Assembly: GCF_029582805.1 (NCBI RefSeq)
Contig: NZ_JAKKUT010000002.1
Span: 434,001-498,000 of the forward strand
DNA length: 64,000 bases
Source: Candidatus Synechococcus calcipolaris G9
GTDB lineage: Bacteria; Cyanobacteriota; Cyanobacteriia; Thermosynechococcales; Thermosynechococcaceae
Reading direction: 5' to 3'
This document shows, piece after piece, positions 31,046 through 53,863 of the stretch (positions within the stretch are counted from its first letter, which is position 1; every line of letters starts with the position of its first letter). Under the pieces are notes generated by a model. The model did no database searches. It saw only the letters and a program-made list of their open reading frames with translations, and had not been told where the DNA came from. The position numbers and the translations under genes are program-made.

Positions 31046-32887
31046 ATGTCGTCGGTGTCGGTTCAGGATCATAGCCCCCAATCTGCCCCCATTGCCTTAC
31101 CCCGTACCAGTGAATCAGAGACCCTGAAGCGGATTCGCCACACCACCTCCCATGTTTTAGCCATGGCCGTCCAAAAGCTCTTTCCCAAGGCCCAAGTGAC
31201 GATTGGCCCCTGGATTGAGTCGGGTTTTTATTATGACTTTGACCATCCCGAACCCTTTAGCGAAAAAGACCTAAAGCGGATTGAAAAGGAGATGGTGAAG
31301 ATTATCAAGCGGAAACTACCGGTGATCCGCGAAGAAGTAAGCCGGGAGGACGCGATCGCCCGGATTGAGGCCCTGGGGGAGCCCTACAAACTGGAAATTC
31401 TCGCAGACCTAGAGGAACCGATTACCCTGTACCACCTAGGGGATCAGTGGTGGGATCTCTGCGCCGGCCCCCATGTGGAAAATACCGCAGAGCTTAACCC
31501 CAAGGCGATCGCCCTAGAGAGTGTGGCCGGAGCCTACTGGCGCGGCGATGAAACCAAGGCCCAACTGCAACGCATCTATGGAACAGCATGGGAAACTCCA
31601 GAGCAACTGGCGGAACACCAGCGGCGCAAAGCCGAGGCCCTGCGGCGAGATCATCGCAAACTGGGCAAGGAACTGGGGTTATTTGTCTTTGCGGATCCCG
31701 TCGGGCCCGGCTTACCCCTATGGACTCCCAAGGGCACGGTGTTGCGTTCCACCCTCGAGGACTTTCTCAAACAGGAGCAACTGAAGCGGGGCTATTTATC
31801 CGTAGTGACTCCCCACATTGCTCGGGTGGATTTATTTAAGACCTCGGGCCATTGGCAAAAGTACAAAGAGGATATGTTTCCGCTGATGGCGGAAGATGAG
31901 GCCGCCGCCAACCTAGAACAGGGGTTTGTCCTCAAGCCGATGAACTGTCCCTTTCACATTCAAATTTATAAAAGTGAATTGCGCTCCTATCGGGATTTAC
32001 CCCTGCGGTTGGCGGAATTTGGGACGGTCTATCGCTATGAGCAATCGGGAGAATTGGGGGGTTTAACCCGGGTGCGCGGCTTTACGGTGGATGATTCCCA
32101 CCTGTTTGTCACCCCCGATCAATTGGATCAGGAATTCCTGAACGTGGTGGATCTCATCCTGGAGGTATTTCGCGCTCTCCATTTGCATCGCTTCAAGGCC
32201 CGGCTCAGTTTTCGGGATCCAGACTCGGATAAATATATTGGTTCCGATGAAGCCTGGTCAAAGGCAGAAAATGCCATCCAGCGAGCGGTGGAATCCCTAG
32301 GAATGGATCATTTTCTCGGTCTGGGGGAAGCGGCCTTCTATGGACCCAAGCTGGACTTTATTTTTGAAGATGCCCTTGGTCGAGACTGGCAGTTGGGTAC
32401 GGTGCAGGTGGACTACAATCTGCCGGAACGATTTGATCTCGAATACATTGGCGATGACAATGAACGCCATCGACCGGTGATGATCCATCGGGCCCCCTTT
32501 GGATCCCTAGAACGATTAATTGGCATTCTCATTGAGGAATATGCGGGGGATTTTCCCTTTTGGTTAGCACCAGAGCAGGTACGACTCTTACCCGTGGGGG
32601 ATGTCCAGCGGCCCTATGCTGAGGAGGTGGCCCATAAACTCAGACAGGCCGGTATTCGCGTCAAGGTGGATACCAGTGGAGATCGCCTCGGCAAACAAAT
32701 TCGCAATGGGGAGACCCAAAAAATTCCGGTCATGGCCATTATTGGGGCCAAGGAAGCGGAGGAACACACCCTGAGTATTCGCACCCGTACCGACGGAGAT
32801 GTGGGAAGTATTAACCTAGGGCAGGCGATCGCCAGTCTCAAAACCGCCATGGAAAACCGCAGCCTAGGATTCACCTGGCAAGACTAG
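31046..32887 (+). CDS. thrS: Threonyl-tRNA synthetase
   Basis: 613 residues. Editing-domain motifs HTTSHVLAMA and CAGPH, class II motif 2 region (RYEQSGELGGLTRVRGFTVDD), zinc/active-site KPMNCPFH, motif 3 (HRAPFGSLERLIGILIEE) and an anticodon-binding C-terminus (VRLLPVG...GDRLGKQIR). The protein starts directly at the editing domain: the N-terminal TGS domain (about 60 residues) of many bacterial ThrRS is absent, as its length also shows. Confidence 0.96.
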   Translation: MSSVSVQDHSPQSAPIALPRTSESETLKRIRHTTSHVLAMAVQKLFPKAQVTIGPWIESGFYYDFDHPEPFSEKDLKRIEKEMVKIIKRKLPVIREEVSREDAIARIEALGEPYKLEILADLEEPITLYHLGDQWWDLCAGPHVENTAELNPKAIALESVAGAYWRGDETKAQLQRIYGTAWETPEQLAEHQRRKAEALRRDHRKLGKELGLFVFADPVGPGLPLWTPKGTVLRSTLEDFLKQEQLKRGYLSVVTPHIARVDLFKTSGHWQKYKEDMFPLMAEDEAAANLEQGFVLKPMNCPFHIQIYKSELRSYRDLPLRLAEFGTVYRYEQSGELGGLTRVRGFTVDDSHLFVTPDQLDQEFLNVVDLILEVFRALHLHRFKARLSFRDPDSDKYIGSDEAWSKAENAIQRAVESLGMDHFLGLGEAAFYGPKLDFIFEDALGRDWQLGTVQVDYNLPERFDLEYIGDDNERHRPVMIHRAPFGSLERLIGILIEEYAGDFPFWLAPEQVRLLPVGDVQRPYAEEVAHKLRQAGIRVKVDTSGDRLGKQIRNGETQKIPVMAIIGAKEAEEHTLSIRTRTDGDVGSINLGQAIASLKTAMENRSLGFTWQD

Positions 32888-50617: not shown

Positions 50618-51508
50618 TTACGTACAGCTAGAGTTATTTTTCTGCAAATTATCTAGCCATAGTTGCAGATCCGAAAAGCATTGGAAGTCTAGGAGAACAT
50701 CCACCAAGGTTTCCAATTGCAGGACAGAGAGGTTTTCCAGCCGAAGACGCAGAGCTTCGGGTACAGTTCCTAAGCGGCGGGTCAATAGTCGCAGGATTAA
50801 GGTCAATTCTCCCTCTTGCCGTCCTCGCTGCTCTCCAATGCGCTCCCCTTCTTCCTTGATTTCTTGGTAAAAACGGGTTTTATGTAACTCTGTAGCAGTA
50901 AACCCTAGCATTTCCTCTACCTCTTCCCGACTTAGATGGGTAAATTTATACACCAAAATGGTGGTCAGTAGTTCTATTATGGCGCAGCTAATCGACTCCG
51001 GTTCCTGTTGACTGCGAGCCAAAATTTCTCTAGCAACAGTGGGGGCTTCTTTTTCCTGCAAAATGGTTAAACGCATCAAAGCAAGTCCCAAAGGCAGTTC
51101 CGGAGAATTGGTTAACTCTTCCAAGTAAATGCGATGAACGCGGGGGCTTTGAACAAAATCCTGAAAGGGGAGCCAATTACTCTGTTCAATTTTTCTAGAT
51201 GGATAAATAATTACCACTCGCCAATCAGAAAAGTGGGCACGATACAAGCAGAAATACAACAACGATTCACTAAAGAGACGCTCATAAAGTTTCTCATCTT
51301 TTTGAAACTGTACTTCACAAAAATAAACGATCCCCGGTGGATCATTTTCAGGTGGTAGAAAAACTCCATCAATCCGAAAAGATGCTTCTTTGACCTCTAC
51401 CGAATCAAACCGATAACCCGATACATTAGTGGGGGTTACATCCAGCAGATCAAAAAGTGTCAGAGGAAGTTGCTGAAACAGTTGATAGAAAATGGAATCT
51501 CGGCGCAT
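50618..51508 (-). CDS. Rpn/DUF2887-type nuclease-like protein
   Basis: 296 residues. N-terminal PD-(D/E)XK-type core with Asp47 (RIDGVF) and Glu65-x-Gln67 (VYFCEVQFQ), then helices, a charged ERIGEQRGRQEGE segment, and a C-terminal DUF4351-like part (LILRLLTRRLGTVPEALRLRLENLSV). Such recombination-promoting-nuclease-like proteins are multi-copy and mobile in cyanobacteria. No terminal repeats are visible around it. Confidence 0.85.
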   Translation of the reverse strand: MRRDSIFYQLFQQLPLTLFDLLDVTPTNVSGYRFDSVEVKEASFRIDGVFLPPENDPPGIVYFCEVQFQKDEKLYERLFSESLLYFCLYRAHFSDWRVVIIYPSRKIEQSNWLPFQDFVQSPRVHRIYLEELTNSPELPLGLALMRLTILQEKEAPTVAREILARSQQEPESISCAIIELLTTILVYKFTHLSREEVEEMLGFTATELHKTRFYQEIKEEGERIGEQRGRQEGELTLILRLLTRRLGTVPEALRLRLENLSVLQLETLVDVLLDFQCFSDLQLWLDNLQKNNSSCT

Positions 51509-53400: not shown

Positions 53401-53577
53401 AGAGCCACGTTAAGTTCTGACACGCAAATTTTTACAGTTGAGGTTTATTCTAGCACCACCTGGGTTCTAGGCAAGGGACTAGGTGGGAAACGCTGGAAGA
53501 ATTTTTTCTTTTCAATTTTTAGTTATCTCTTCTTAATTCTATATTTTTTATAATCTCTATATAGTAGTAGTAGGGCC
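53401..53577. other. AT-rich left flank of putative origin
   Basis: Mostly A+T between 53500 and 53570 (long T and TA runs). No gene seen. It may hold a DNA unwinding element or only the promoter of the binding-protein gene. Confidence 0.4.
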
Positions 53578-53863
53578 TGTGGAAAATGTGGAAAAAAATC
53601 TGAAGTGCTTACTCTGAGAGATATTGAGGTCGATCCCCCCTGTGGAAAAGTTGTGGAAAAAGTAGAGGAGTTTTCCACAGGGTATTAAAATGTAAGGAAA
53701 AGGTTAAAAAGTTTTTCACAATTTTGCGGAGTTTTCCTAGGGTTTTCCACAGGTTATCCCCAGATTTTTCCACAGGCATTTTGAGGTTTTCCACAGGTTT
53801 GCGGAGGCCATTTTTTGTAAATTCGTTAAAAAAATTATTAAATTTAGTCAAAAATTATCCACT
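53578..53863. other. oriC: Putative chromosomal replication origin (oriC)
   Basis: Eight exact copies of the cyanobacterial DnaA box. Four are in TGTGGAAAA orientation: 53578-53586, 53587-53595, 53641-53649, 53652-53660. Four are in TTTTCCACA orientation: 53671-53679, 53743-53751, 53766-53774, 53787-53795. Near matches lie at 53712-53720 (TTTTTCACA), 53754-53762 (TTATCCCCA) and 53855-53863 (TTATCCACT). The two orientations form separate groups facing each other. AT-rich DNA lies at 53810-53855 and 53500-53570. Flanking genes run outward on both sides for several kilobases. Base counts flip: 12 G/23 C in 52321-52380 but 22 G/8 C in 54421-54480 on the plus strand. dnaA and dnaN are not in the window. 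Confidence 0.85.

Follow-up and report, generated by a model that had tools for sequence, protein, structure and literature searches.

A probable chromosomal replication origin separated from dnaA and dnaN in Candidatus Synechococcus calcipolaris G9

Can a cluster of DnaA boxes with neither dnaA nor dnaN beside it be the origin of chromosomal replication (oriC)? The question is raised by a stretch of 64,000 nucleotides from Candidatus Synechococcus calcipolaris G9 (contig NZ_JAKKUT010000002.1, positions 434,001 to 498,000), hereafter the window, in which an original prediction had placed such an origin. We identified 53497-53795 of the window as very probably the chromosomal oriC, apparently inherited in place from a dnaN-oriC-dnaA locus whose gene neighbors have moved away. 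Four observations underlie this reading: the anatomy of the site, its single occurrence in the genome, its conservation in relatives, and the synteny around it.

Anatomy and uniqueness of the DnaA-box array

The array comprises 8 exact TTTTCCACA boxes in 218 bp (53578-53795; positions 487578-487795 on contig C2 of genome G000, to which the window belongs), 4 on the minus strand followed by 4 on the plus strand, and exact matching bore out the opposed arrangement originally described. At its left edge lies a module that the original prediction had overlooked and that we regard as decisive for the assignment as an oriC, as judged from the sequence. Read from left to right, the module is contiguous (TAGTAGTAGTAG GGCC TGTGGAAAA TGTGGAAAA) and consists of a DnaA-trio element of 4 TAG trinucleotides (53562-53573, plus strand), conserved in relatives, a GC-rich 4-bp spacer, GGCC, between the trio and the first box (53574-53577, plus strand; trio and spacer together 53562-53577), and 2 abutting tandem boxes, (TGTGGAAAA)x2, which are conserved across cyanobacteria (53578-53595, minus strand; boxes at 53578 and 53587). 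These are the parts of the basal unwinding system (BUS), defined as DnaA-trios (3'-GAT-5', that is, 5'-TAG-3') with a short GC-rich spacer and tandem DnaA boxes, in which the trio-to-box spacer averages 4 bp (PMC8287927). The same study accepted at least 3 DnaA-trios within 16 bp of a DnaA box on the correct strand and in the correct order, and found that DnaA of S. elongatus opened its cognate BUS in vitro, with both boxes and trios required. The site in the window has 4 trios, a 4-bp spacer, and abutting boxes, all in the correct strand and order.

A predicted AT-rich duplex unwinding element (DUE; 53497-53561, no strand assigned) adjoins the trio, as in BUS origins. It overlaps the 60-bp stretch of the window that is richest in A and T: the top AT content among all 60-bp windows of the 64 kb, 85%, was recorded at 53497-53564, reaching over the start of the trio, and the AT-rich flank noted earlier was thus confirmed. 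The secondary structure of the AT-rich strand was no better than that of shuffles.

The only other exact TTTTCCACA in the window is at position 31474. In a genome sample of 791,583 bases (0.79 Mb), scanned in 300-bp windows for boxes with at most 1 mismatch, the best 300 bp lay at the array with 9 boxes, and the runner-up elsewhere in the sample held 3. Across the whole 3.3-Mb genome, exact boxes formed close pairs at the array (4) and at C2:1743444 (1) and nowhere else. A search for TAGTAG-N(0-9)-TGTGGAAAA returned a single site in this genome, which was the array (in 2 overlapping readings). Clustered DnaA boxes with the species' consensus, as expected of an oriC, are therefore present at the array and unique in the genome.

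Conservation of the module in cyanobacteria

The same module was identified both within the family and outside it, in dozens of cyanobacterial genomes, including Acaryochloris, Petrachloros, Pseudanabaena, Leptolyngbya-like, and other cyanobacteria, typically at 110-700 bp from dnaN and, where the contig reaches dnaA, at the same typical spacing from that gene. GGGGC, GGGCC, or GGTCC stands at the place of the spacer in relatives. In an alignment of 15 genomes, the identity of 14 relatives to the window copy was 97.7% in the boxes, 98.8% in the trios, and 42.4% in the rest (for the effect of how the loci were collected, see below). Among 51 loci with trios, 48 had a gap of 44-46 bp from the double box to the next pair, so that the pairs repeat at 63 bp, or about 6 helical turns, although gap length was partly selected for, as some of the collecting patterns fixed a gap of 38-52 bp.

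We also observed that the AT-rich element bears at its far edge an inverted trio, CTACTACTA, facing the TAG trios on the other strand, in all 7 genomes examined of a Thermosynechococcus-like genus (g5) and in some others (loci L137, L267-L272, L140, L149, and L166). Of 52 loci, 12 had CTACTA upstream of the TAG trios, where shuffled sequences gave 0.9. Inverted trios could serve the second helicase. Further, loci of Nostocales and of Okeania/Trichodesmium have a double box near dnaN/dnaA, mostly with no TAG trios (trio-less loci: L138, L141, L143, L146, L191, L197, L200, L204, and L210), and the loss of trios may go together with a loss of dependence on DnaA.

Separation of dnaA and dnaN from the array

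In most relatives the module adjoins dnaN, and the order dnaN-oriC-dnaA-rnpA-PH protein-yidC-jag, kept in 4 of them (G019, G005, G001, and G006), would on this comparison be the ancestral one. On C2, dnaA (232435-233832) and dnaN (739640-740767) lie about 254 kb and 252-253 kb from the array, respectively, on opposite sides, so that adjacency to dnaN (and, in relatives, to dnaA), a usual but nondefining trait of a cyanobacterial oriC, is missing here. No box clusters were found near dnaA or dnaN in this genome, including the denser cluster next to dnaN that had been named beforehand as the finding that would overturn the proposal. The dnaA-rnpA-PH protein-yidC-jag block is intact at C2:232.4-236.6 kb and has no boxes, and the encoded DnaA is complete (465 aa), with DnaA_N, Bac_DnaA, and Bac_DnaA_C (domains I, III, and IV) all above the cut-off. 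As relatives keep the ancestral order, and as dnaA and dnaN are distant here and have no boxes, the array would represent an inherited oriC that lacks its usual neighbors.

A phylogeny of DnaN grouped this genome, the sister genome G009, and genus g5 at full support, with the branching order among the 3 left unsettled by the tree, and dnaN is detached from the array in all of them. G009 retains oriC-dnaA-rnpA and the genes that follow, and the g5 genomes have neither dnaA nor dnaN at the array. In G009, dnaN adjoins amt and tab2; in a further sister genome, G022, about 6.5 kb separates dnaN from DUF2339-pdxH, which is in matching order. Because the flanks of the array trace in this way to the surroundings of dnaN in sister genera, the simplest reading of the synteny is that the array stayed in place while dnaA and dnaN moved off. 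Together with the trio/double-box module and its conservation, this synteny supports well the proposal of an oriC with no adjacent dnaA or dnaN. The near-equal distances of dnaA and dnaN may be a coincidence; a single inversion symmetric about oriC was considered as their cause and is ruled out by the orientation of dnaN.

GC skew and alternative explanations

Several points weigh against an active oriC at the array. GC skew, sampled in 10-kb stretches over most contigs rather than over the full sequence, was weak and irregular, with a cumulative maximum on C2 at about 0.52 Mb and a minimum at about 1.4-1.5 Mb, and the chromosomes of G009 and G022 have no V shape in their skew. Irregular skew is common among cyanobacteria. 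Several cyanobacteria with irregular skew replicate without a DnaA-oriC system despite keeping dnaA (PMC7198777). Finally, the aligned relatives were collected by exact box patterns, so that identity in the double box was partly selected for; the trios and the remaining boxes were absent from the patterns that collected the loci and are much less subject to this bias. The GC-skew minimum, another usual but nondefining trait of a cyanobacterial oriC, does not fall at the array, and the skew of C2 supports neither the array nor dnaN (0.74 Mb). Skew had been part of the original argument, which fails on this point, as it is the cumulative maximum that lies near the array in the sampled data. The G/C counts cited for a switch across the site (12 G/23 C and 22 G/8 C) are exact, but they do not amount to a chromosomal switch because they come from hand-picked 60-bp pieces of 2 divergent genes.

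The array could accordingly be a relic, the ancestral origin of a lineage that, like Synechocystis 6803 and Nostoc 7120, is now independent of DnaA and oriC and uses another or many start sites; in Nostoc 7120, DnaA is reported to be dispensable (PMC7198777). The irregular skew here and in sister genomes agrees with this, as does the loss of both neighbor genes from the array. Moreover, 'Synechococcus sp. PCC 6321' was reported as an irregular-skew exception among otherwise V-shaped clades (PMC7198777); the name is probably a misprint of PCC 6312, and the strain may be the sister G009, although that identification is a guess. We nevertheless consider a relic unlikely, given that the 8 boxes, 4 trios, and spacer, with the distance between boxes, have stayed intact at near-100% identity in intergenic sequence that has otherwise diverged to background, and that DnaA is complete. 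Relatives of the DnaA-dispensable lineages mostly keep the double box without TAG trios, unlike this genome.

DnaA boxes also occur outside origins, in this genome at C2:1743444, upstream of a DUF2811 gene, and the array might by the same token be a datA-like titration site or a DnaA-controlled promoter of a flanking gene. Such a cluster would consist of boxes with no trio or unwinding module, whereas trios, spacer, abutting double box, and adjacent AT-rich element occur together at the array and nowhere else in this genome; the array is also constant while the flanking genes differ between lineages, and its orthologues sit between dnaN and dnaA, which makes a nonorigin function very improbable. 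Least probable of all is that the array came in with an integrated plasmid or another mobile element as its replication origin. The position of the array apart from the usual chromosomal replication genes would suit this, but the neighbors within the surrounding 20 kb include housekeeping genes (amt, tab2, yajQ, pdxH, and arginine decarboxylase), no plasmid initiator gene was recognized among the open reading frames at 48-60 kb, and the flanks trace to the dnaN neighborhoods of sister genera.

Proposed mechanism of origin opening

For an inherited chromosomal oriC, we propose the BUS route by analogy with B. subtilis and with S. elongatus in vitro. DnaA would bind the abutting double box (53578-53595) and polymerize leftward past the GGCC spacer to engage the TAG trios (53562-53573) on one strand while these become single-stranded; the AT-rich element (53497-53561) would be stretched and melted, and the helicase would be loaded there. 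That DnaA binds and melts the site, and that replication starts chiefly there, is inferred from these likenesses. The second pair, at a distance of 63 bp or about 6 helical turns, may add DnaA, stabilize the complex, or set timing, as may the opposed right-hand boxes, for which a role in assembly or timing is probable. The opposed boxes had originally been thought to mark the point where DnaA filaments meet. We set aside this idea of a meeting at the center because the array has the trio and AT-rich element to its left, beyond the boxes, and the conserved module would place opening at that edge.

Comparison with known origins

Like the experimentally determined oriC of S. elongatus PCC 7942, the array has TTTTCCACA boxes and a BUS of boxes and trios; PCC 7942 has an adjacent dnaN and a regular GC skew, neither of which is found here. 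The BUS of B. subtilis oriC likewise has 2 tandem boxes, a GC-rich spacer, same-strand TAG-type trios, and an AT-rich unwinding site, but differs in box sequence and copy number, in the opposed right-hand boxes, and in that the site here has no dnaA or dnaN. The oriC of E. coli consists of a DUE followed by boxes of one orientation and then of the other, a layout shared with the array, and it too is separated from dnaA and dnaN. The E. coli origin has a weak BUS score (PMC8287927) and sites for IHF and Fis, whereas the trio in the window is a textbook one.

Among cyanobacteria, dnaN lies beside oriC in 55 of 68, and the predicted oriC of T. elongatus BP-1 does not adjoin it (PMC4674748). The array resembles the BP-1 origin in having genes other than dnaN on both sides and many boxes (12 reported in BP-1; PMC4674748), and differs in its 8 exact boxes and in its neighbors, which here are genes of an ABC binding protein and a DUF2339 protein. 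In Synechococcus (Thermosynechococcus) lividus PCC 6715, probably of the same wider lineage, the predicted oriC is far from both dnaA and dnaN (DoriC 10.0, PMC6323995). In comparison with PCC 6715, dnaA here heads its intact block elsewhere, the flanking genes differ, and the window has no mirrored (CTA) trios, which all 7 g5 genomes examined have. Since the predicted oriC of BP-1 and of PCC 6715 had already been noted to lie away from dnaN (and in PCC 6715 also from dnaA), the array is a further case of a known situation. New here are the trio, the spacing kept across loci, and the signs of how the locus came apart; the mechanism itself would be ordinary.

Remaining boxes and flanking genes

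The second minus-strand pair (53641-53660; boxes at 53641 and 53652) follows the double box after 45 bp. On the plus strand, box 5 (53671-53679), the first in the opposite orientation, is exact and is aligned and conserved in relatives, and boxes 6 (53743-53751), 7 (53766-53774), and 8 (53787-53795) are exact copies of TTTTCCACA. All 3 near matches reported earlier were recovered, also on the plus strand: TTTTTCACA (53712-53720), which aligns with TTTTCCACA or a near match in most relatives; TTATCCCCA (53754-53762), with 2 mismatches and included in the alignment of relatives; and a weak TTATCCACT (53855-53863), with 2 mismatches, which ends where the originally proposed element ended.

Pfam domains established the flanking genes as those first named, and both face outward. 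An ABC-type periplasmic binding protein gene (ANF_receptor/Peripla_BP_6, PF13458/PF01094; 52093-53400, minus strand) lies on the side that holds dnaN in relatives, and a DUF2339 membrane protein gene (PF10101; 53983-55911, plus strand) on the side that holds dnaA. A search of the genome contigs with the DUF2339 protein gave no matches. Between tab2 and yajQ, near the array, we identified a DUF2887/DUF4351 gene (Pfam; 50618-51508) of a kind often termed transposase- or nuclease-like (Rpn), possibly the remnant of a rearrangement on the side once held by dnaN.

A second DnaA-box cluster upstream of DUF2811

A second cluster, with no trio, was located at C2:1743157-1743474 (L278:7158-7475), and its boxes at C2:1743444 precede a DUF2811 (PF10929) gene by 362-384 bp. 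When 30 DUF2811 genes were taken from the class regardless of boxes, 25 had at least 2 exact boxes within 600 bp upstream and 28 had at least 1, against an expectation of about 0.7 boxes in total. These boxes mostly share a single orientation with 21/22-bp phasing (loci L287-L336 and L278). Of 77 cyanobacterial genomes searched, 76 have DUF2811, and S. elongatus was the only one of 14 controls to have it. The predicted structure of DUF2811 is of low confidence (pLDDT, the predicted local distance difference test score, 62), and the literature searched made no mention of the family. The upstream cluster marks DUF2811 as a candidate for a phylum-wide DnaA-controlled gene or titration site. At the same locus, a protoporphyrinogen-oxidase-like gene (amine oxidoreductase family; L278:5407-6856) is split into 2 overlapping open reading frames, by either a frameshift or an assembly error, and is intact in G022 and others.

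Implications

The analysis places the likely origin at base resolution where prediction from skew or neighbor genes would fail, and it names the exact bases to mutate, namely those of the trio, spacer, and double box. The genome is also a clean test case for DnaA dependence in a cyanobacterium that combines irregular skew with an intact trio, an issue that has stood since DnaA-independent relatives were described. It is conceivable, though we hold it tentatively, that the classic dnaN-oriC-dnaA-rnpA-yidC locus has come apart into 3 pieces about 250 kb from one another, leaving a DnaA-trio module to act alone as origin on a chromosome that bears no skew footprint; that DnaA-dependent initiation in a cyanobacterium requires neither dnaA/dnaN linkage nor strand asymmetry; and that the box pair upstream of DUF2811 is a second, phylum-wide DnaA control point. 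What evolution holds constant, on the comparison of these loci, is the unwinding module and not the gene linkage.
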